The notes beneath the pieces are model-generated. The model ran no database searches. It saw only the letters and a program-made list of their open reading frames with translations, and had not been told where the DNA came from. From Rhizobium subbaraonis (GTDB lineage: Bacteria; Pseudomonadota; Alphaproteobacteria; Rhizobiales; Rhizobiaceae): a stretch of DNA of 64,000 nt. The stretch is from positions 183,234-247,233 of the forward strand of contig NZ_OBQD01000004.1 in NCBI RefSeq assembly GCF_900220975.1, written 5' to 3'. Shown here piece after piece: positions 8,444 to 63,860 of the stretch (positions are counted from its first letter, which is position 1; each line of letters starts with the position of its first letter). Position numbers and translations under genes: made by a program.

Positions 8444-11400
8444 TCAGATGAAGGCGAAGTCGTCAACGCTCAGCGACTTCACGCCTTGCAGCGTGGCGAC
8501 GAGTTCCAGATCAGCATCCGTGCCCTTGCCGTCCGCGTCGAACCAGAGGCGCCCGTTGTCGGTCTCGAGCAGGAAAGTGCCTTTGGTGGCGGTCGCGACA
8601 GGGTCGGCGCCGGTGACGAGGGTCACGGTCTTGTTCCCAGCGGCGATGCCATAGGCGCCCTTGGAGACGACGAGCTTGTCCTGGCCACGGGTGAAGTCCG
8701 TGATCACGTCGCCCTCGCCGTCACGACCGGCGCTGTCGAAGACGAACTGGTCCTTCCCGGTGCCACCGGTCAGCCAGTCGTCGCCGGCCCCGCCGATGAG
8801 CTTGTCGTTGCCGGAACGGCCATCGAGGACGTCGTCCGAACCGTTGCCGTAGAACACGTTGTCCCCGGCGTCGCCGCGGATGGCGTCGTCATTGTTGCTG
8901 CCCTGGATGATTTCGATGTTCTTCACCGTCAGGCCGAGCGCCAGTCCCTTGTTGGTTGCCTGGTTCTGCAGGTCGAGGACGACGGAGGTGGTGCCCCCTC
9001 TGAAGGACAGCGTATCGGTGCCATACCCGCCGTCGAAGACGTCCTTGCCGCCAAAGTCGGTCCGGATGAGCAGGTCGTTGTCGGCGTCACCGAACAGATT
9101 GTCGCTGCCGGCTCCGTCCTCCAGCTTGTCGGCGCCAGTACCGCCGCGCAGCGTGTCGTTGCCGGCATTGCCCTTCAGCCAGTCGGCCAGCGCGCCGCCG
9201 GAGACGGTGTCCTTGCCCTTGCCGCCGTCATAGTCCAGCGCTTCGAAGCCCTGGAAGGACGTCGTCGCATCGACCTTCACCGTGCCGGTGGAGAAGGTGA
9301 AGGCGATATCCTTCGTCTGCTCCGTCATCAGGAGATGCAGCGTATCGCTGCCTTCACCGCCATCGGCGACGTCGCCCGCGCCGGCATAGACATGGTCGTT
9401 GCCCTTCTCGCCGTAGAGCTTGTCCTTGCCGCCGGTGAGGCCGAGGCCATCGCCGTAAAGCGTGTCGTTGCCGTCACCGCCGCGAAGCGTGTCGTTGCCG
9501 ACGTCCCCTGAGAGCAGATCGTTTCCGCTGCCGCCGGCGAGGGTGTCGTCACCCGCCCGGCCGCGCAGTTCGTCGGTCAGGTTGCCGCCGGTAAAGACGT
9601 CATTGCCGGACCCGCCCACCAGGGAGACGCGTTCGACGCCCTTCACCGTCACCGACGCGTTGGCCACGGTGACGGTCGAGGCGACCTTGTAGGTGATGCC
9701 CTGCGTATACTTGCTGAAGTCGATTGAGGCGAAGTCCGTGCCGGCGCCGCCGTCGAGCGTCAGCTTGCCCGTGGAAGCCGCGCGGAAGAAATCGTCGTCG
9801 CCGTCACCCATGTTGACCGTGTAGTGGCCCACGGCCTTGGCGCCGTCGCGGACATAGACGTCGTCCGCACCGCTGCCGGCGTCGATGGTGTTCGTGCCGC
9901 CGGCGTCACGGATCACGTCGTTGCCCGCGCCGGCGGTGAGCTTGTCGTTGCCTTCGCCGCCGTCGAGCAGGTCGTTGTAGGCCGTGCCCATCAGCGTGTC
10001 GTTGCCGGCATAGCCGTAGAAGGTGACGCCCTTGGCCGCGCCGACCGACTTCACCACATCGTTCCCGGAGCCGAAGTCGACGTGGAAATACTCGAAGTTC
10101 GTCATCGAGGAGCCGTCCGTCAGGGACGCCGTCGCCCCGCTGACGGAGAAGGTCTGGCTCGTCGCCAGCGACTTGCGGTCGACATAGACGCGGTCGGTGC
10201 TTGCGCCGCCATCGGCCTTGTCGGCTCCGCCGTCGCCCAGATAGACGCGGTCGTCGCCGTCGCCGGCATTGATCGTATCCTTGCCTGCCCCGGCGCGCAG
10301 TTCGTCGTTTCCGGCCCCGCCGTTGATCACGTCGTCTCCTGCCCCGGCATCGACGACGTCATGGCCGCTGCCGGTCGTGATCTTGTTTATACCGGAACCG
10401 ACGGCATGAATGCTGTAGTGCTCGATGCCGGAGAAGGTCGTGCCGCCCGAAAGAGTGTTGACCTGGGTCGGCAGCTTGGCCGTGAAATCTCCGGTGAACT
10501 TGGTGACGATGAGACGGTCGCTGCCGCTGGTATCGGTGATCTTGTCCTTGCCGTCGCCGAAGGCGTACCGATAGGTGTCGTTTCCGCTGCCGCCCTCGAT
10601 GACGTCGTCGCCGAGGCCGCCTGTGAGATCGTCGTCGCCGACCCCGCCATTTATCGTGTCCTTGCCGGTTCCGCCATTGATGGTGTCGTTGCCACCATCG
10701 CCGTAAAGCAGGTCGTTGCCGTCGTCGCCATTGATCATGTCGCCGTCGTCACCACCCCAGACCCTGTCGTCGCTTTCGCCACCGGAAAGGATATCGACCC
10801 CTTTTTCGCCGTGGAGCGTGTCCTTGCCCTCCGCGCCGTTGAGGATGTCGACGCCATGACCGCCATAGAGCGTGTCGTCGCCTTCGCCGCCGTCGATATA
10901 GTCGCTGCCGCGGCCACCCTTGAGTACGTCGTTTCCGCCGCCGCCCATGAACATGTCGTTATAGTTGCCGCCGGTGATATTGTCGGCGAAGTCCGTGCCG
11001 GTAATCTGGTAGCTCTCCACGTAGCTCGTCTTGATGTTGCCGACGAGCGTCTGTTCGGAAATCCAGTCCTTGATCGCGATCGAAACGCCGCTGGTGCGAT
11101 CGCCATAATCCACCATCAGGCGGTCGGTGCCCGATCCGCCATTGACGATGTCGCCGGCCATATCCTGCAGCCCACCGGCCATGAGGGTGTCGCGGCCGGA
11201 TCCGCCGTTGAGACGGTCGGCGCCGAGCCCGCCGGTGAGCATGTCATCGCCACTGTCGCCATTCAGCGTGTCGTTGCCGATATCGCCGACAATGTAGTCG
11301 CTCTGGAAGGAGCCGTTGAGCTGGTCATTGCCGGCGCCGCCCATGATTGTATCGCTTCCCATGCCGCCATTGACGATGTCGTCGCCGTCGAGCGCCATGA

Positions 11401-11476
11401 TCATATCCTGCTCGGCCCCCAAGAGGTCCTTGCCTATCAAATTGTCGGCTCCCATCGAGCCCATGATCGTTGCCAT
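8444..11476 (-). CDS. RTX protein: large calcium-binding repeat protein, probably type I secreted
   Basis: A 1,010-residue acidic protein made almost entirely of glycine/aspartate nonapeptide repeats (GGxGxDxLx type) from its first residues onward; such repeats fold as calcium-filled beta-rolls. Between the roll blocks are beta-rich spacers, each ending in a segment such as FSGIEHYSI, TNFEYFHV, VKGVERVSL, FQGFEALDY or VKNIEIIQG before the next GSGNDxxxG; I count five or six. The C-terminus (RLWFDADGKG, ATLQGVKSLSVDDFAFI) is the kind of uncleaved signal seen in type I secreted RTX proteins. No enzymatic domain is visible and no HlyB/HlyD/TolC genes are in the window. Start ATG 11476 has AGGAGA at 11482-11487. 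Function unknown. Confidence 0.9.
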   Translation of the reverse strand: MATIMGSMGADNLIGKDLLGAEQDMIMALDGDDIVNGGMGSDTIMGGAGNDQLNGSFQSDYIVGDIGNDTLNGDSGDDMLTGGLGADRLNGGSGRDTLMAGGLQDMAGDIVNGGSGTDRLMVDYGDRTSGVSIAIKDWISEQTLVGNIKTSYVESYQITGTDFADNITGGNYNDMFMGGGGNDVLKGGRGSDYIDGGEGDDTLYGGHGVDILNGAEGKDTLHGEKGVDILSGGESDDRVWGGDDGDMINGDDGNDLLYGDGGNDTINGGTGKDTINGGVGDDDLTGGLGDDVIEGGSGNDTYRYAFGDGKDKITDTSGSDRLIVTKFTGDFTAKLPTQVNTLSGGTTFSGIEHYSIHAVGSGINKITTGSGHDVVDAGAGDDVINGGAGNDELRAGAGKDTINAGDGDDRVYLGDGGADKADGGASTDRVYVDRKSLATSQTFSVSGATASLTDGSSMTNFEYFHVDFGSGNDVVKSVGAAKGVTFYGYAGNDTLMGTAYNDLLDGGEGNDKLTAGAGNDVIRDAGGTNTIDAGSGADDVYVRDGAKAVGHYTVNMGDGDDDFFRAASTGKLTLDGGAGTDFASIDFSKYTQGITYKVASTVTVANASVTVKGVERVSLVGGSGNDVFTGGNLTDELRGRAGDDTLAGGSGNDLLSGDVGNDTLRGGDGNDTLYGDGLGLTGGKDKLYGEKGNDHVYAGAGDVADGGEGSDTLHLLMTEQTKDIAFTFSTGTVKVDATTSFQGFEALDYDGGKGKDTVSGGALADWLKGNAGNDTLRGGTGADKLEDGAGSDNLFGDADNDLLIRTDFGGKDVFDGGYGTDTLSFRGGTTSVVLDLQNQATNKGLALGLTVKNIEIIQGSNNDDAIRGDAGDNVFYGNGSDDVLDGRSGNDKLIGGAGDDWLTGGTGKDQFVFDSAGRDGEGDVITDFTRGQDKLVVSKGAYGIAAGNKTVTLVTGADPVATATKGTFLLETDNGRLWFDADGKGTDADLELVATLQGVKSLSVDDFAFI

Positions 11477-56877: not shown

Positions 56878-56883
56878 CCCACA

Positions 56884-56972
56884 CATTCCGAGGGGGGCAT
56901 CGTAACGGTGCTGAGATGGCGGTGAGCCGGACCCTTGAACCTGATCCGGGTCATACCGGCGTAGGAACGGAA
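56884..56972 (+). ncRNA. TPP riboswitch (THI element)
   Basis: The conserved pieces are in order: GAGGGGGGC, the CTGAGATGGC core (56921-56930), ACCCTTGAACCTGATCCGGG (56931-56950) and TCATACCGGCGTAGGAA, with TTCC/GGAA closing helix P1. It senses thiamine pyrophosphate and should lower expression of the following salvage and transport genes when thiamine is plentiful. Confidence 0.95.
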
Positions 56973-57014
56973 AACGCCCGCCAAGGCGCCTCTTTCTATT
57001 CTCCGCTTCACCTG

Positions 57015-57041
57015 GATCTCCATGATTGTTGTCGGGAGATC
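57015..57041 (+). promoter_or_regulatory. Hairpin masking the first ribosome site after the riboswitch
   Basis: GATCTCC (57015-57021) pairs with GGAGATC (57035-57041), which includes the GGGAG ribosome site of the short frame at 57047. Such a stem could be the switch's expression platform acting on translation. Confidence 0.5.
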
Positions 57042-57046
57042 GATCG

Positions 57047-57118
57047 ATGCCGCTTGAAAATCCTCACCTGAACGAGCTCGGGCCCCTGCCGGTTCGCGCA
57101 CCAGCCCGCGCCGACTGA
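57047..57118 (+). CDS. Possible 23-residue leader peptide of the thiamine operon
   Basis: The frame MPLENPHLNELGPLPVRAPA..RAD ends 5 bases before the permease start. GGGAG lies 8 bases upstream of its ATG. It may couple riboswitch-controlled translation to the permease, or be a remnant of a lost gene. No family recognised. Confidence 0.4.
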   Translation: MPLENPHLNELGPLPVRAPARAD

Positions 57119-57123
57119 GAGCC

Positions 57124-57909
57124 ATGCGCGCCCTCCACGTGGGGCTGTCCCTTGTGTCGCTTGTCGCCCTCTGGCAGGCCGGGACCGTCATCCTCGCTCC
57201 CCCTCCCTACCTGGTCCCCTCGCCGGCAGCCGTTGCTACGGCCTTTGCGGCACGTCCCGGCTTTTTTTTCGAACACGGGCTGGTGACTCTTACGGAAGTC
57301 CTTGCCGGTCTGCTGGCGGGCTCGATCTTCGGTGCTGCCGTTGCTTTCGGCGTTGCTGCGCTGCCGCGCCTCGGGCAGTTCGTCTGGCCGGCGATCCTGA
57401 TCCTACAGGCGCTGCCGGTGTTCGTGCTCGCGCCCATTCTCGTTCTGTGGCTGGGCTTCGGCATGGCCTCCAAGGTGGCGATGGCGACCATCATCATCTT
57501 CTTTCCGGTCGCATCCGCCTTTGCCGACGGCCTGCGCAGAACCGATCGAACCATTCTCGACGCCGCGTCGCTGACCCCTGCAACGCACTGGCAGACGCTC
57601 GTCCGCATCCGCCTGCCGCTGGCGCTGCCGGCGCTCGTGTCGGGTCTGCGCGTCGCCGCACCGCTCGCACCGCTGGGTGCGGTGGTCGGCGAGTGGGTGG
57701 GAGCGTCCGCCGGGCTCGGCTTCGTGATGGTGCAGGCCAACGCGCGCATGCAGACGCCGACCGTCTTTGCCGCCATGGCCGTCCTGGCCGCACTTACCGT
57801 AGCGCTGAGGCTCGGCATCGACCGGCTTACGGCCGGGGTTGCACCCTGGGCGCCGGAATTTCCTTCCGCCTCTCTCAATCCTTTCCGCAGGAGACCCAAA
57901 ACATCATGA
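57124..57909 (+). CDS. thiX: ABC transporter permease, ThiX-like (thiamine precursor uptake)
   Basis: 261 residues with six membrane segments and the inner-membrane-component signature EWVGASAGLGFVM near residues 195-210 (SsuC/TauC/ThiX type). It is the first sizeable gene after the TPP riboswitch and overlaps the binding-protein gene by 4 bases. Expected to import the pyrimidine precursor with the ThiY-like protein. No ATP-binding subunit gene is found in the operon. Confidence 0.85.
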   Translation: MRALHVGLSLVSLVALWQAGTVILAPPPYLVPSPAAVATAFAARPGFFFEHGLVTLTEVLAGLLAGSIFGAAVAFGVAALPRLGQFVWPAILILQALPVFVLAPILVLWLGFGMASKVAMATIIIFFPVASAFADGLRRTDRTILDAASLTPATHWQTLVRIRLPLALPALVSGLRVAAPLAPLGAVVGEWVGASAGLGFVMVQANARMQTPTVFAAMAVLAALTVALRLGIDRLTAGVAPWAPEFPSASLNPFRRRPKTS

Positions 57910-58850
57910 TCCGCTCTCTTTCCTTTACCTTCCTGCTCGCTTGGGGGCTGCTTGCCGCAGGGCCGTCGCTGGCCGCCGAAAAGCTCTCCGTCCTGCTCGA
58001 ATGGTTCGTCAATCCGGATCACGCGCCGATGGTGATTGCCCGGGAGAAGGGCTTCTTTGCCGATGCCGGTCTCGATGTGGAACTCGTGCCGCCGGCCGAT
58101 CCGTCGTCCGTGCCGAGGCTGGTCTCGGCCGGACAGGCCGACATAGGGGTGCACTACCAGCCAAGCCTGTATCTCGACCATGCGGAAGGCTTGCCGCTGG
58201 TCCGCTTCGGCACGCTCGTGGAAACGCCGCTCAACACCGTCACCGTTCTTGCGGACGGCCCGATCAGGAGCCTGAAGGACCTGAAGGGCAAGAAGGTGGG
58301 CTTTTCCGTTTCGGGTTTCGAGGATGTCATGCTGAGGCGGATGCTCGCCTCCGAGGGGCTGAGCGACAAGGACGTCGAACTGATCAACGTCAATTTCTCG
58401 CTGTCGCCCTCGCTGATCGGCGGCAGGGTGGATGCGACCATCGGCGGCTTTCGCAATTTCGAGCTGACGCAGATGCGCCTTGAGGGCCATGAGGGGCGCT
58501 CGTTCTTCCCCGAGGAACATGGCGTGCCGGTCTATGACGAACTGGTTTTCGTCACCCGGACGGATCTGGTCGCGGACGACCGGCTGCCGCGCTTCCTGGA
58601 GGCGGTGGAAGAGGCCTCTATCTTCCTCACCAATCACCCGCAGGAAGCCTGGCAGCTCTTCATCAAGGCCTACCCCGACCTCGACGACGCGCTGAATCGG
58701 CAGGCCTTCACCGACACGCTGCCCCGCTTCGCCAAGCGTCCTGCCGCCCTGGACCGCGGGCGCTACGAACGCTTTGGCGCCTTCCTGAAGGACGGCGGGC
58801 TGATCAAGACGGCGCCCGCCGTCGACGACATCGCCGTCGAGATCCGGTGA
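57906..58850 (+). CDS. thiY: ABC substrate-binding protein, ThiY-like (thiamine pyrimidine precursor)
   Basis: 314 residues, signal peptide 1-22 (SFTFLLAWGLLAAGPSLAA). The mature start LSVLLEWFVNPDHAPMVIA and FADAGLDVELVPPADPSSVP match the NMT1/THI5-like proteins; ThiY homologues bind N-formyl-4-amino-5-aminomethyl-2-methylpyrimidine or related pyrimidines. The iron-binding cysteine motif of yeast Thi5 is absent, so it is a binder, not a synthase. ATG 57906 overlaps the permease stop. Confidence 0.9.
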   Translation: MIRSLSFTFLLAWGLLAAGPSLAAEKLSVLLEWFVNPDHAPMVIAREKGFFADAGLDVELVPPADPSSVPRLVSAGQADIGVHYQPSLYLDHAEGLPLVRFGTLVETPLNTVTVLADGPIRSLKDLKGKKVGFSVSGFEDVMLRRMLASEGLSDKDVELINVNFSLSPSLIGGRVDATIGGFRNFELTQMRLEGHEGRSFFPEEHGVPVYDELVFVTRTDLVADDRLPRFLEAVEEASIFLTNHPQEAWQLFIKAYPDLDDALNRQAFTDTLPRFAKRPAALDRGRYERFGAFLKDGGLIKTAPAVDDIAVEIR

Positions 58851-59593
58851 GCGTGATGCTGGAGCTTCCCTCATCCTTGCGTGCAGCGACGCTTCTGGCG
58901 CAGGTGCGCGCACGCCGCCCGCGGGTGCATTGCCTGATGAACACCGTGGTGCAGAAATTCACCGCCGACGGCATCACCGTGGTCGGCGGCATTCCCTCGA
59001 TGACCTCGTCGTTCGAGGAGATCGGCAGTTTCGTCGCCAAGGCTGATGCGCTGGTGGTCAATCTCGGAACGCTCGATGCCGCGCGCCGCGAGGTGATCCG
59101 GCTTGCCGTGGGCGTCGCCAATGCCGCCGGCAAACCCTGGATCCTCGACCCGGTGCACTGCGACTACTCCCCGTCGCGTCTTGCGTTTGCCCGCGAACTG
59201 ACCGGGCTTGGGCCGGCGATCGTTCGCGGCAATACGGCGGAGATGGCTCTTTTCGAGGAAGCCGGATCGGCCGTGCGCATCTGCACCGGTCCGGTCGACC
59301 GCCTGGCCGATGGCGGCAGAAGCGTGCGGATCGCAAACGGCCATCGCTGGATGGCGGCGGTCACCGGAACCGGTTGCCTGACGGGTGGCGTGATCGCCGC
59401 CTTCATGGCGGTCGAGCCGGACAAGCTCATTGCCGCGGCAAGCGCGCTCGTCGTCACCGGTGTATCCGCCGAGCTCGCGGCCCGGGAGGCAAAAGGGCCG
59501 GGCAGCTTTGGCGTCGCCTTCCTGGATTCGCTTTCCGAAGTCGGCGCAGACGAACTCCTCCTGCATGCAAGGATCGAAGATGACCGGAATTGA
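58847..59593 (+). CDS. thiM: Hydroxyethylthiazole kinase
   Basis: Phosphorylates the thiazole alcohol released from thiamine breakdown. 248 residues; GTG start at 58847 overlaps the previous stop (GTGA). Motifs: VHCLMNTVVQKFTADG at the N-terminus, GGIPSMTSSFEEI, DPVHCDYSP and the C-terminal AVTGTGCLTGGVI with the catalytic Cys. It ends inside thiE, 14 bases overlapping. Confidence 0.95.
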   Translation: MSVMLELPSSLRAATLLAQVRARRPRVHCLMNTVVQKFTADGITVVGGIPSMTSSFEEIGSFVAKADALVVNLGTLDAARREVIRLAVGVANAAGKPWILDPVHCDYSPSRLAFARELTGLGPAIVRGNTAEMALFEEAGSAVRICTGPVDRLADGGRSVRIANGHRWMAAVTGTGCLTGGVIAAFMAVEPDKLIAAASALVVTGVSAELAAREAKGPGSFGVAFLDSLSEVGADELLLHARIEDDRN

Positions 59594-60242
59594 CTACCGC
59601 CTGAATGCGCTGGTGGATGGGGGACTGTCCGCCATCGGCTCGCTCTCGGAAATGGCGGCACTGGCGGCCCGCAACGGGACCACGCTCGTCCAGTACCGCG
59701 ACAAGACTGCATCGACCCGGATGATGATCGAGCGCGCGCGCGCGATCCGTGCGGCTCTGCAAGGCACCGGCGTGCCTCTCGTCGTCAACGACCGTGTCGA
59801 CGTCGCGCTCGCGGCAGGGGCTGCCGGCGTCCATCTCGGCGCAGAAGACATGGACGCCGAGACCGCCCGGCTGTTGCTGGGACCGACGGCGATCATCGGC
59901 CTGACGGTAAAGAACGAGGCGGATGCGGATCGCGCCGGCCGGGCGCCGGTCGACTATGCGTGCATCGGCGGGGTGTTCCAGACGCTATCGAAGGTCAATC
60001 CCGATCCGCCTTTGGGGATCGAGGGGTTTGCCCAACTGCGCCAACGCATCCGGACCCTCAATCCGACGCTACCGGTCGGCGCGATCGCCGGCATTGATCT
60101 CGACCAGGTCCCAGAGGTCATTGCCGCGGGGGCGGACGGTGTGGCGGTGATCTCTGCCGTCTTCCGAAAGCCCGACGTCGCAGAGGCTGCGCGGTTGCTT
60201 CGCTCGGCGGTGGACGCTGCACTGGACAGGAGAAGGGCATGA
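59580..60242 (+). CDS. thiE: Thiamine-phosphate synthase
   Basis: Joins HMP pyrophosphate and thiazole phosphate to thiamine phosphate. 220 residues from ATG 59580, which lies inside thiM; a longer frame from 59430 is not supported. Family blocks: TLVQYRDKTAST, LVVNDRVDVALAAGAAGVHLG, YACIGGVFQTLSK and GADGVAVISAVF. Overlaps thiD by 4 bases. Confidence 0.95.
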   Translation: MTGIDYRLNALVDGGLSAIGSLSEMAALAARNGTTLVQYRDKTASTRMMIERARAIRAALQGTGVPLVVNDRVDVALAAGAAGVHLGAEDMDAETARLLLGPTAIIGLTVKNEADADRAGRAPVDYACIGGVFQTLSKVNPDPPLGIEGFAQLRQRIRTLNPTLPVGAIAGIDLDQVPEVIAAGADGVAVISAVFRKPDVAEAARLLRSAVDAALDRRRA

Positions 60243-61039
60243 CGGCAATCGCACTCACCATAGCCGGATCCGACAGCGGTGGCGGCGCAGGCATCCAGGC
60301 AGACATCAAGACCTTCTCTGCGCTCGGCGTCTATGCAGCGAGCGTACTGACGGCCGTCACGGCGCAGAATACCAGGGGTGTCACGGCCGTCGAAGACATC
60401 TCGCCACCACTCGTTGCGGCGCAGATGGACGCGGTCCTGACGGACCTTTCCGTCGGCGCGGTCAAGATCGGCATGGTGTCGCGCAGTGAAACGATCGCCG
60501 TGATCGCCGACGGGGTGCTCCGGTTCGGTCTTCGACCGGTGCTGGACCCTGTGATGGTTGCCACGTCCGGCGACCGCCTGCTGCAGGCGGATGCGGTCGA
60601 GACGCTGAAGGCCGAACTCGTGCCGCGGTCCCTGATCGTCACGCCAAACCTGCCCGAGGCGGCGCTGCTGACCGGGATGCCGATTGCGACCGACAGGGCG
60701 GCGATGCTCCGTCAGGCCGAGGCGATCATGAATGCCGGCGCCGGCGCGGTGCTCTTGAAGGGTGGGCATGGGACAGGAGCCGACAGCACGGACCTGTTCT
60801 TCGACGGAAGGCAAGCGCTGGAGCTTTCCGCCTCCCGAATAGAGACGCGGCACGATCACGGCACCGGCTGCACGCTGGCCGCAGCGATCACCGCGAACCT
60901 TGCCAGGGGGCACGAGCTTGTCGAGGCCGTTCGCCTCGCCAAGGCGTATCTGCACGACGCGCTCGTCGCCGGCCGGTCGCTGGCCATCGGGCAGGGGCGG
61001 GGGCCCGTGCATCACTTCCACCGCTGGTGGCCGGCTTGA
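60239..61039 (+). CDS. thiD: Hydroxymethylpyrimidine / phosphomethylpyrimidine kinase
   Basis: Two-step phosphorylation of HMP to HMP pyrophosphate. 266 residues of the ribokinase superfamily: TIAGSDSGGGAGIQADIKTF at the N-terminus and HDHGTGCTLAAAITANLA with the catalytic Cys. ATG 60239 overlaps thiE. Its last 13 bases overlap the TRAP transporter start. Confidence 0.96.
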   Translation: MTAIALTIAGSDSGGGAGIQADIKTFSALGVYAASVLTAVTAQNTRGVTAVEDISPPLVAAQMDAVLTDLSVGAVKIGMVSRSETIAVIADGVLRFGLRPVLDPVMVATSGDRLLQADAVETLKAELVPRSLIVTPNLPEAALLTGMPIATDRAAMLRQAEAIMNAGAGAVLLKGGHGTGADSTDLFFDGRQALELSASRIETRHDHGTGCTLAAAITANLARGHELVEAVRLAKAYLHDALVAGRSLAIGQGRGPVHHFHRWWPA

Positions 61040-62805
61040 CCCGGCGGATGGCGCAGGCCGTCGAGGCCGCTCTCGGTACGCTCGCCGCTCTGTTGCTGGC
61101 GGCGCTGCTGGCGATCGTGCTCTGCTCGGTCGTCATGCGCTACGTCTTCCATACCGGCTTCGTCGGCGTCGAGGAGCTGTGTATCTGGCTGCATGTCGCG
61201 CTGATTGCTGCCGCTGCGCCGCTGGGACTAGACGGGCCGCTCGCCATGCGCATGGATCTGTTGTCGCGTCGGCTGCCGGAGCAGTGGCGATTTGCGGCGG
61301 CCGATGGCTTCAGCATCGTCGCCGGCCTCGTCTTTCTCTTCGGCGGCGGCGAGATCATGGCTCTCCTCGGTGGGACTTCCCCCGCGCTCGGTCTGCCGGA
61401 ATGGATACGGTTCGGCTTTGTCGGCGCCAGCGGCCTGATGCTTCTCGTTGTGCTGGCGCTGAAAAGGCTGTCGCAGGGGCGCGAACTTTGCCTGGGCGTT
61501 TCGTTGGCGTCGGGAGTTGCGATCTATCTTGCCATCCCGCTGCTGTCGGTCGATACCGGTCTGCCGGCGAGCCTGTTTCTGGCCCTCGTCGCGGCCCTCG
61601 GGCTTCTATCGGCGGCGCCCTTGCCGCATGCCTTTCTCGCGGCCGCTTATGTTGCCATCGCCTTCGGCGGCGGCCTGCCGGAGCCGGCGATCGTTTCCAC
61701 CGCGGTCTCCGGCATGTCGAAATTCCTGCTGCTCGCCATCCCGTTTTTCCTGCTGGCCGGCGGCCTCCTGACCGTGTCCGGTGCCGCCGGGCGCCTCGTC
61801 CGTTTCGCGGAGACGCTTGTCGGCCACCGGCGGGCCGGGCTGGCGCAGACGACCCTCTTGACGAGCGTGTTCTTTTCCGGGGCCTCGGGCTCCTCGGTGG
61901 CCAATGCCGCCTTCGGCGCATCGACCTTCTACCCGGAGCTCGTCCGCAAGGGCTATGCGCCGGAACGAGCCGGTGCAATCATCGCCGCCACATCGGTACT
62001 CGACAACGTCATTCCGCCATCGATCGCCTTCCTGCTGCTGGCCGCAGCCACCCAGCTTTCGGTCGGCTCGCTGCTTGTCGGCGGCTTCTTCGCCGGCGGG
62101 CTCATGGCGCTCTGCCTGGCATTTGCGATCCACTTCTCGGCTGGAGATCCCGGCACTGCGCCTCGGGCAACCGCGGCGCAGTGCCGGCAGGCGCTTGCGT
62201 CCGCACTGCCGGCCCTCGGCCTCGGCATCATCGTGGTGGCGGGTATCCGTTTCGGCGTTATCACCACCACCGAGGCGGCAGCGGTGGCTGCGGCCTACAC
62301 CCTTTTGCTGAGCCTTGCGGCATCCGGTCGGCCTGTCCACGCGTTCGCCAGCTTCCGTCAGGCTGCGGCCGAGGCAGCGGCGATCGGCCTCCTGATCGGC
62401 ACCGCGGCCCCCTTCGCTTTCCTGCTGGCGCTGGACGACATAGCCGGCCTCGTGTCGCGCTGTGTGAGCATGCTCGGCGGTGGCGCATTTGCAGTCCTGC
62501 TGCTGTCGAACCTCGTTCTGCTCACCGCCGGCCTCGTGCTCGACATCGGTGCGGCAATCCTGTTGCTCGGGCCGATCCTGCTGCCCGCCGCCGTCGCCGC
62601 CGGTATCGATCCGGTTCAGTTCGGCGTGATCGTGGTGGTGAACCTGATGATCCATGGCCTCACGCCGCCGATCGGCATTCTCATCTACGTCGTCAGCGGC
62701 GTCACCCGCGTTTCGCCGACCGCGTTGTTCGGCGCCGTCCTTCCCTACCTTGCTGCGCTGCTTTTCGCCCTCGTCGTCCTGTGCGCGTTTGCGCTTCTGT
62801 TCTGA
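61027..62805 (+). CDS. TRAP transporter fused small/large permease (DctQ-DctM)
   Basis: 592 residues. The first ~155 form the four-helix small subunit (DctQ: VEELCIWLHVALIAAAAPLG), the rest the large DctM subunit with about twelve segments (FFSGASGSSVANAAFGAS, VIPPSIAFLL, LTPPIGILIYVV). GTG start at 61027 lies inside thiD, so it is in the riboswitch-controlled operon. TRAP systems use the Na+ gradient to import mostly carboxylated solutes; the neighbours suggest a thiamine-related solute here. Confidence 0.9.
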   Translation: MAGLTRRMAQAVEAALGTLAALLLAALLAIVLCSVVMRYVFHTGFVGVEELCIWLHVALIAAAAPLGLDGPLAMRMDLLSRRLPEQWRFAAADGFSIVAGLVFLFGGGEIMALLGGTSPALGLPEWIRFGFVGASGLMLLVVLALKRLSQGRELCLGVSLASGVAIYLAIPLLSVDTGLPASLFLALVAALGLLSAAPLPHAFLAAAYVAIAFGGGLPEPAIVSTAVSGMSKFLLLAIPFFLLAGGLLTVSGAAGRLVRFAETLVGHRRAGLAQTTLLTSVFFSGASGSSVANAAFGASTFYPELVRKGYAPERAGAIIAATSVLDNVIPPSIAFLLLAAATQLSVGSLLVGGFFAGGLMALCLAFAIHFSAGDPGTAPRATAAQCRQALASALPALGLGIIVVAGIRFGVITTTEAAAVAAAYTLLLSLAASGRPVHAFASFRQAAAEAAAIGLLIGTAAPFAFLLALDDIAGLVSRCVSMLGGGAFAVLLLSNLVLLTAGLVLDIGAAILLLGPILLPAAVAAGIDPVQFGVIVVVNLMIHGLTPPIGILIYVVSGVTRVSPTALFGAVLPYLAALLFALVVLCAFALLF

Positions 62806-62816
62806 TCGGAGTTTTC

Positions 62817-63815
62817 ATGGACTGCCTCCACCGCCGCTGCTTCCTCACGTCCGCCGCCGCTGTTCTTTCCAGCCTCGCCGCGCCCGCACTTGTTCGACCG
62901 GCGCACGCACGGGCGACTACCGTCACGATTGCCTCGCTGCTCGGCGAGGACAAGCCGGAGACGAAGATCTGGCGACGGGTCGCGGACGTGGTCGAGGCCC
63001 GGCTTCCGGGGCGCTTCCGCTTCAACATCGTCGCAAACGGCGCGCTCGGCGGGGAGAAGGAGGTGGCAGAAAGCGTTCGGCTTGGTGCCGTGCAGGCGAG
63101 CCTCTCCACAATGTCCTCGCTGTCGGGCTGGGTGCCGCAGGTGCAGATCCTCGATCTTCCCTTTCTCTATCGCGACGCCGCCCATGTGCGGCGGGTCGTG
63201 GAAGGCGGGATCGGTGCGGATCTTCGGCAACAGCTGGCCGAGCAGGGCTTCATCGTCGGCGGCTTCATCGACTACGGAGCGCGGCATCTCCTGACAAAGC
63301 AGCCGGTAACGCGACCTCAGCAGCTGCGCGGCGTCAAGATCCGGGTGATCCAGAGCCCTCTGCACCAGAAGCTCTGGAGCGCCTTCGCCGCTGTCCCGGT
63401 CGGCATCCCGATCACGGAGACCTACAACGCGCTTTCCACCGGCGTCGCAGATGCGATGGACCTGACCAAATCCGCCTATGCCGGATTCAAGCTGTACGAA
63501 GTCGTTCCCTTCCTGACAGAGACCGGACACATCCGCGCGTCCGGCGTGGTGTACTTCGGCAGCGCCTTCTGGAGCGGCCTGTCCGACGAGGAGAGAGGCG
63601 TGCTCGGGACCGCAGTTTCGGAGGGGGCCAGCTATTTCAACCAGCTGATCGTCGACGACGAGAAGGCGTCGATGCAGCAGGTGGAGGCAGGCGGGGGCAC
63701 GGTGTTTGCGCCGGAAATGCCGGAAGCATGGCTGGAGGGAGCCCAGACAGTCTGGGGTGACCTTGCGGACGTCGTCGGAGGGATGGAGAAGATCAAGGCT
63801 GCACAGGGCGCGTGA
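62817..63815 (+). CDS. TRAP transporter substrate-binding protein (DctP family)
   Basis: 332 residues from ATG 62817, 11 bases after the fused permease, with GGAG upstream. Twin-arginine-like signal (HRRCFLTSAAAVLSSLA) cleaved near AHARA. The block GVKIRVIQSPLHQKLW holds the Arg that in most TRAP proteins binds the solute's carboxylate, and NALSTGVADAMD is also conserved. So the solute is probably an anion, despite the thiamine operon. Last gene of the operon. Confidence 0.92.
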   Translation: MDCLHRRCFLTSAAAVLSSLAAPALVRPAHARATTVTIASLLGEDKPETKIWRRVADVVEARLPGRFRFNIVANGALGGEKEVAESVRLGAVQASLSTMSSLSGWVPQVQILDLPFLYRDAAHVRRVVEGGIGADLRQQLAEQGFIVGGFIDYGARHLLTKQPVTRPQQLRGVKIRVIQSPLHQKLWSAFAAVPVGIPITETYNALSTGVADAMDLTKSAYAGFKLYEVVPFLTETGHIRASGVVYFGSAFWSGLSDEERGVLGTAVSEGASYFNQLIVDDEKASMQQVEAGGGTVFAPEMPEAWLEGAQTVWGDLADVVGGMEKIKAAQGA

Positions 63816-63827
63816 GGTCTGAGCATA

Positions 63828-63860
63828 GGGGCGATCGCGAAGCAGCGGCGATCGCCTGTC
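63828..63860 (+). terminator. Hairpin after the TRAP/thiamine operon
   Basis: GGCGATCGC (63830-63838) pairs with GCGATCGCC (63848-63856); outer GG and CCCC extend it loosely. There is no T run, so its role as terminator is uncertain. The last 140 bases of the window are AT-rich and show nothing else. Confidence 0.4.

Follow-up and report, generated by a model that had tools for sequence, protein, structure and literature searches.

TRAP (tripartite ATP-independent periplasmic) carriers take up organic anions, which are captured by a periplasmic binding protein and then moved by ion-coupled transport; to our knowledge, no characterised TRAP transporter serves thiamine, and literature searches for one found no paper. 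Among the precursors of vitamin B1, 5-(2-hydroxyethyl)-4-methylthiazole-2-carboxylate (cHET) is described as an exchanged compound that algae and E. coli use at picomolar concentrations through transport systems of 'unknown sequence identity' (PMC5899164), and it is present in seawater at 3-38 pM (PMC12236431). The table of thiamine-precursor transporters in PMC10881298 holds neither a thiazole transporter nor a TRAP system, and the transporter list in PMC12236431 likewise names none for thiazole. For the pyrimidine-precursor importer ThiXYZ, RibXY-type kin that have no ATPase have been described (PMC3766115), in a paper in whose text 'TRAP' denotes another protein. The present analysis concerns a TRAP transporter, encoded by dctQM and dctP, that closes a thiamine salvage operon in Rhizobium subbaraonis; the operon lies within a stretch of 64,000 nucleotides (contig NZ_OBQD01000004.1, positions 183,234 to 247,233), hereafter the window, and coordinates are those of the window unless a relative is named.

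Gene context and gene content lead us to propose, tentatively and with rather less than even confidence, that this thiamine-regulon transporter imports an anionic thiamine precursor, most likely cHET, the ligand being putative. All eight elements from the thiamine pyrophosphate (TPP) riboswitch to dctP lie on the + strand, with the genes head to tail, and are followed by a possible operon end:

56881..56984, + strand: TPP riboswitch aptamer RF00059 (cmscan 77.2 bits, gathering score 54.3, E 1.7e-13)
57124..57909, + strand: thiX-like ATP-binding cassette (ABC) permease (Pfam BPD_transp_1, 95.3 bits)
57906..58850, + strand: thiY-like pyrimidine-precursor binding protein (Pfam NMT1, 249 bits)
58847..59593, + strand: thiM, hydroxyethylthiazole kinase, short form (HK 177.9 bits; NF006830 229 bits, cut-off 180)
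59580..60242, + strand: thiE, thiamine phosphate synthase (TIGR00693 168.2 bits, cut-off 145.1; Pfam TMP-TENI)
60239..61039, + strand: thiD, kinase of 4-amino-5-hydroxymethyl-2-methylpyrimidine (HMP) and its phosphate (TIGR00097 315.8 bits, cut-off 204.95; Pfam Phos_pyr_kin)
61036..62805 (alternative start GTG 61027), + strand: dctQM, fused TRAP membrane protein (start from a conserved 4-base overlap)
62817..63815, + strand: dctP, TRAP solute-binding protein (Pfam DctP above cut-off)
63830-63838/63848-63856, + strand: perfect 9-base inverted repeat, possible operon end (read from the sequence)

The original prediction had recognised here a complete TPP riboswitch followed by ThiX, ThiY, thiM, thiE, thiD, a fused DctQM and DctP, and this layout was borne out: the riboswitch match is complete over model positions 1-105 and is the sole above-threshold Rfam match in the window, and all seven products score above their Pfam cut-offs. 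The dctQM gene is a single frame holding DctQ (PF04290, 53.0 bits) and DctM (PF06808, 275.2 bits), with 277.8 bits against TIGR00786 (cut-off 268.45). Overlaps of 4, 4, 14 and 4 bases join thiX-thiY-thiM-thiE-thiD, as had been claimed, and a gap of 11 bases separates dctQM from dctP. The claimed 13-base overlap between thiD and dctQM depends on the start at GTG 61027, which is kept in most near relatives; TTG 61036 is the better-supported start, because in 16 of 18 related loci the start and the upstream stop share 4 bases as ATGA, GTGA or TTGA (from 23 measured; L055, L086 and L087 show a gap at this junction, and neither L123 nor L137 has a clear start). This 4-base overlap holds also in L060, L061 and L104, where thiE and not thiD precedes dctQM.

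A search of the neighbourhoods of homologues bore directly on the supposition that the transporter belongs with thi genes, and did not refute it: the linkage recurs in lineages that diverge deep in the DctP tree, and each linked locus that was inspected carries a TPP riboswitch. Scanning of genome contigs gave 184 DctP relatives, and the best-scoring 80 were analysed, all of them Rhizobiales (Hyphomicrobiales) by record title except one titled Marinicella. In 20 of these 80, thi genes lie directly upstream of dctQM-dctP on the same strand, a count that is not a frequency in nature because the 80 are the best-scoring of 184. The riboswitch was found in all 20 linked loci (15 by pattern, five more by covariance model) and in none of the unlinked loci searched (0/60 by pattern, 0/6 by covariance model). 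The full thiXYMED set is kept in 16 linked loci, and reduced forms occur in the others, namely TPP-thiE-dctQM-dctP with thiE alone (L060, L061, L104) and TPP-thiX-thiY-dctQM-dctP with thiXY alone (L055). Pattern searches showed a TPP riboswitch in each of the additional linked loci, which lie in G159, G032, G042 and G221 and on the plasmids L168, L172 and L173; in G042, dctP follows tenA on the thi strand and dctQM lies on the opposite strand. Flanking genes differ between loci while the thi-TRAP unit persists, and the chance of such a TRAP position is about 0.002 per genome (a rough value that assumes three riboswitches, 7 kb each and 5.5 Mb). It is thus well supported by gene order that dctQM-dctP belong to the thi unit and the thiamine regulon, and from the tight, conserved operon we infer that they would be co-regulated by TPP.

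Beyond these relatives, 385 class-wide genomes (few of the same order) yielded four besides the host with matches past 1e-75 (43-49% identity), none of the four beside the thi genes searched for. Marinicella is a gammaproteobacterial genus; the thiE-TRAP operon of the record titled Marinicella sp. W31 (L060) groups tightly with Martelella, and the record may be misnamed.

Which half of thiamine the transporter could serve is suggested by the biosynthetic genes of its hosts. Of the two TPP riboswitches in the R. subbaraonis genome (6.58 Mb in 85 contigs), the second adjoins a thiBPQ-like set (ThiB and ThiP above the equivalog cut-off, ThiQ 0.15 bits short); the genome has one TenA and no match to ThiC, ThiG or THI4. 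The host thus looks like a full thiamine auxotroph that imports thiamine and would also be able to reassemble it from its two halves. A full-length ThiG is encoded by 1 of 25 thi-linked genomes versus 8 of 12 genomes whose TRAP is linked to an SsuD-like gene (p = 1e-4), and by 1 of 12 genomes that have the TRAP without a whole SsuD module. This three-group count merges genomes that stand under two handles, omits G008 (where the thi operon and the TRAP each stop at a contig end), disregards short ThiG hits that score 20-25 bits and cover only part of the model (G202, G211, G212, G213, G217, G234), counts G228 as SsuD-linked though its thi operon keeps a cut-short dctQM, and places G219 and G102, each with a piece of an SsuD gene, in the group without the whole module. 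In an even sample of the family, ThiG was found in 0 of 9 linked genomes versus 91 of 190 others (p = 0.004). Within the handle set, 7 of 25 linked and 11 of 16 unlinked genomes have ThiC, fragments (G205, a metagenome-assembled genome) and a partial ThiC (G232) being counted as present. Among the genomes with a thiE-TRAP operon, G218 has neither enzyme, and G209 and G210 have ThiC and lack ThiG; therefore, the half in need in these two would be the thiazole. THI4 was considered as a hidden thiazole source and ruled out, with no match among 31 handles, that is, 26 different genomes. Two genomes that carry ThiG show a decayed dctQM: that of G228 breaks off after about residue 147, next to a frame resembling a transposase by eye, and that of Ensifer canadensis is spread over three frames, with a ThiG on the same plasmid that is 97% identical to that of G228. 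Collectively, gene content favours a cargo on the thiazole side.

The following route can be envisaged. TPP, via the riboswitch, would switch dctQM-dctP; DctP would capture an anionic thiamine precursor in the periplasm, and the TRAP carrier would import it by ion-coupled transport. If the cargo is cHET, as seems most likely, ThiM could phosphorylate it, this kinase step in these bacteria being conjectural, and ThiE could join the product, cHET phosphate (cHET-P), to HMP pyrophosphate (HMP-PP) made by ThiD from pyrimidine imported via ThiXY, so that the operon would pair one importer with each half of vitamin B1. Several considerations make cHET the leading candidate: TRAP carriers take anions, which the neutral 5-(2-hydroxyethyl)-4-methylthiazole fits poorly, and cHET carries a carboxylate together with the hydroxyethyl group that ThiM phosphorylates. 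Additionally, cHET-P is a reported substrate of bacterial ThiE, and no thiazole transporter is known by sequence according to the passages on transport in the same paper (PMC5899164). The original prediction, that the TRAP system imports a thiamine-related anion such as a carboxylated thiazole, is partly supported by the recurrent thi linkage and, for the thiazole side, by the fact that 24 of 25 linked genomes are without ThiG; its ligand keeps the standing of a candidate. Somewhat more doubtful is the wider proposal that this TRAP is the first dedicated carboxythiazole importer, which rhizobia auxotrophic for thiazole would have drawn into their thiamine regulon on several occasions. If it is true, a gene would be supplied for the transport step of the cHET salvage route, vitamin precursors would join the cargo of TRAP systems, and thiazole salvage would become predictable from genomes. 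With its repeated occurrence behind a TPP riboswitch in bacteria that lack ThiG, this TRAP is a concrete, testable candidate for a cHET importer.

Several observations weigh against this proposal. When the comparison is confined to genomes with a close ThiY, the difference in ThiG (0/9 vs 5/18) is not significant (p = 0.14). Of 199 family genomes, 108 lack ThiG and 21 have the dctP at 1e-60, so most ThiG-less genomes are without such a TRAP. Conversely, R. lemnae (L035, G202) has a full-length ThiG together with a linked TRAP. The gene for the kinase on which the route would depend, thiM, is absent from the operon in 4 of the 20 linked loci (L055, L060, L061, L104). The three-way split of the ThiG count was made after seeing the data, a second dctP (as in G221) was sought in only part of the unlinked genomes, and the ThiG tests overstate significance because the genomes are related. 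The weightiest objection to a thiamine-specific cargo comes from DctP itself, whose motifs are nearly identical in the two contexts (thi-linked and SsuD-linked), which argues that the ligands would be related in both. Moreover, paralogues that sit with SsuD-, SsuA- and BigR-like genes make it probable that this TRAP family transports sulfonates over part of its distribution.

The structure predicted for DctP from 38 rows (mean pLDDT, the model's own per-residue confidence, 85.8) has an ordinary TRAP binding-protein fold, and the arginine motif GVKIRV, which had been said to be kept, is indeed present at residues 172-177. The motifs YGARHL, RVIQSPLH..LW and MDLTKSAY are almost constant across thi- and SsuD-linked DctPs. 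Two positions vary, with Asp152 and Arg240 in all 18 rows of the main thi clade plus L123, and Asn152 and Trp240 in the SsuD-linked rows and six thi-linked ones (L055, L086, L087, L121, L134, L137). The Asp/Arg pair was considered as a convergent mark of thi linkage and dropped, since those six thi-linked rows keep Asn/Trp.

In a first DctP tree, 18 linked rows, including that of the window, form a clade (support 100/99), and three more linked rows lie among unlinked ones. When a distant group was added, the thi label implied 5-6 gains or losses, and the first branches after that group are thi-linked (L134; L137 with L124; L121 with L123); this tree omits 32 close copies of unlinked rows and has several long branches, so that the exact order is unsure, and the linkage of L124 is deduced only from contig ends. 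The thi operons of L086/L087 and G008 are sisters (100/99), yet the TRAP of G008 is early-branching and that of L086/L087 is of the SsuD-linked type, which suggests that one TRAP was exchanged for another at the same site; this reading rests on G008, with its link across a contig end. Among more distant DctP relatives (L131-L133, 43-46% identity), frames that by eye resemble an iron-dependent alcohol dehydrogenase (all three) and a gamma-glutamyltransferase (L132 and L133) lie alongside; a gamma-glutamyltransferase is also annotated after a Thioclava SsuD-TRAP operon (L166).

The paralogues raise the alternative that the TRAP imports an organic sulfonate, which an SsuD-type enzyme would desulfonate in most of them. 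In 32 of the 60 unlinked loci, divergent genes for a glutathione S-transferase (GST)-like and an ArsR protein are followed by SsuA-like and SsuD-like genes before dctQM, ten more keep only the SsuD piece and 18 have neither (manual tally), and the DctPs of the 32 whole-module loci are 64-70% identical to that of the window. The SsuD-like, SsuA-like and BigR-like labels denote NCBIfam matches below curated cut-offs (418 bits for the module SsuD against 518.2 for TIGR03565; 90 bits against 155 for the ArsR protein, which is nearest to the sulfite sensor BigR), and the GST label comes from a clustered relative (L054 12964-13602) and not from the module's own gene. The same SsuD-TRAP pairing is found on plasmids of Thioclava, Marinibacterium and Terrarubrum, and the near-identity of the DctP motifs fits a sulfonate in both contexts. 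Pyrimidine methanesulfonate forms when sulfite cleaves thiamine, and in the thi operons such a thiamine-derived sulfonate could feed the pyrimidine side. In line with this, G198 and G083 carry arsR, ssuA-like and ssuD genes with ABC sulfonate-type genes, and no TRAP, directly after thiD, an arrangement seen in two genera (L149 5690-8109, L154 5754-8178), and the thi operon of the TRAP-bearing G042 is sister to theirs. However, in L169 and L171 the module with ABC genes has no thi genes in the 19 kb around it that were covered, so its place beside thiD is perhaps due to chance. An SsuD homologue of 49-50% identity is encoded elsewhere in five linked genomes (G203, G211, G213, G214, G217), but the module SsuD (at least 84% identity) is absent from 23 of the 25 thi-linked genomes, the other two having it with a separate TRAP, and at E <= 1e-100 no SsuD was matched in 18 of the 25. 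Likewise, the operon described here has no SsuD-type monooxygenase, and none was matched at that threshold in the host (G000). R. straminoryzae (L032 SsuD-linked, L059 thi-linked) and G221 (L033, L137) hold both kinds of TRAP, which are therefore not simply interchangeable there, and the two thiE-TRAP genomes with ThiC should need no pyrimidine. A sulfonate cargo is thus unlikely, though it deserves to be kept in view; pyrimidine methanesulfonate, once considered as the cargo common to both contexts, was demoted to a rival because the module SsuD is missing from those 23 genomes.

A different thiamine-related anion, such as phosphorylated thiamine or thiazole or an acid of the pyrimidine side, would agree with TPP control and thi linkage, and the exchange of Asn/Trp for Asp152/Arg240 in the 18 main-clade DctPs could suit a different anion. 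Nevertheless, six thi-linked rows keep Asn/Trp, intact thiamine has the thiBPQ-like set at the second riboswitch, and ThiXY should, by kinship, serve the pyrimidine side, which makes such a cargo improbable. Least probable is a TRAP for some unrelated carboxylate whose genes have nothing but the transcript in common with the thi genes: unlinked dctQM-dctP without a whole SsuD module do stand beside varied genes, but the repeated linkage behind a TPP riboswitch amid varied flanks, together with the low chance of this position, disfavours hitchhiking of the TRAP. An anionic precursor of the thiazole side, with cHET as its leading candidate, stays the reading that we prefer, as tentatively as stated above.

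The remaining features of the locus concern gene calls and surroundings. The name thiX is given to 57124-57909 because it adjoins thiY, and the solved chain nearest to ThiY is 3ix1, named as a binder of N-formyl-4-amino-5-aminomethyl-2-methylpyrimidine (E 6.4e-38). ThiX and ThiY (57124-58850) stand without a companion ATPase in the operon. ThiM scores 180.4 bits against TIGR00694 (cut-off 256.4), and it is short by about 30 positions, those of the HK model from about 120 to 152. The short ThiM is found in thiXYMED operons with or without the TRAP, G222, G228, G230 and G232 having it without a whole TRAP after thiD; in other rhizobia a full-length ThiM lies near a separate TPP riboswitch. The inverted repeat at 63830-63856 has no T run and was absent from the terminator scan, and the next long frame begins about 500 bases downstream of dctP. 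Just beyond the end of the window, about 500 bases past dctP, lies a frame of 1525 residues (L004 3549-8126) that by eye resembles a nonribosomal peptide synthetase into which a luciferase-like monooxygenase domain is inserted. Elsewhere in the window, 8444-11476 on the - strand encodes a large protein with many RTX calcium-binding repeats.

Compared with known systems, the rhizobial TRAP shares its DctP, DctQ and DctM domains, fold and arginine motif with the transporters of the DctP family (SiaPQM, DctPQM and the IseP isethionate system), but it sits behind a TPP riboswitch, and the solved chains among the 50 matches listed are at most 28% identical to its DctP. With the pyrimidine-precursor ABC importer ThiXYZ the operon has ThiX and ThiY in common, ThiY being kin to the binding protein 3ix1, whereas the operon, to which the search for ThiZ was confined, holds no ThiZ-type ATPase. 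ThiB, ThiT, ThiY, ThiV, CytX, YkoF, thiPerm and Omr1 serve the purpose proposed here, the uptake of thiamine precursors, and several of them are likewise under TPP control. The closest paralogue is the SsuD-linked one, which belongs to the same family, with 64-70% DctP identity to the window and nearly the same motifs, but which has no TPP riboswitch that was found and keeps the company of SsuD-like, SsuA-like, ArsR and GST-like genes, whereas the transporter described here keeps that of the thiamine salvage genes.

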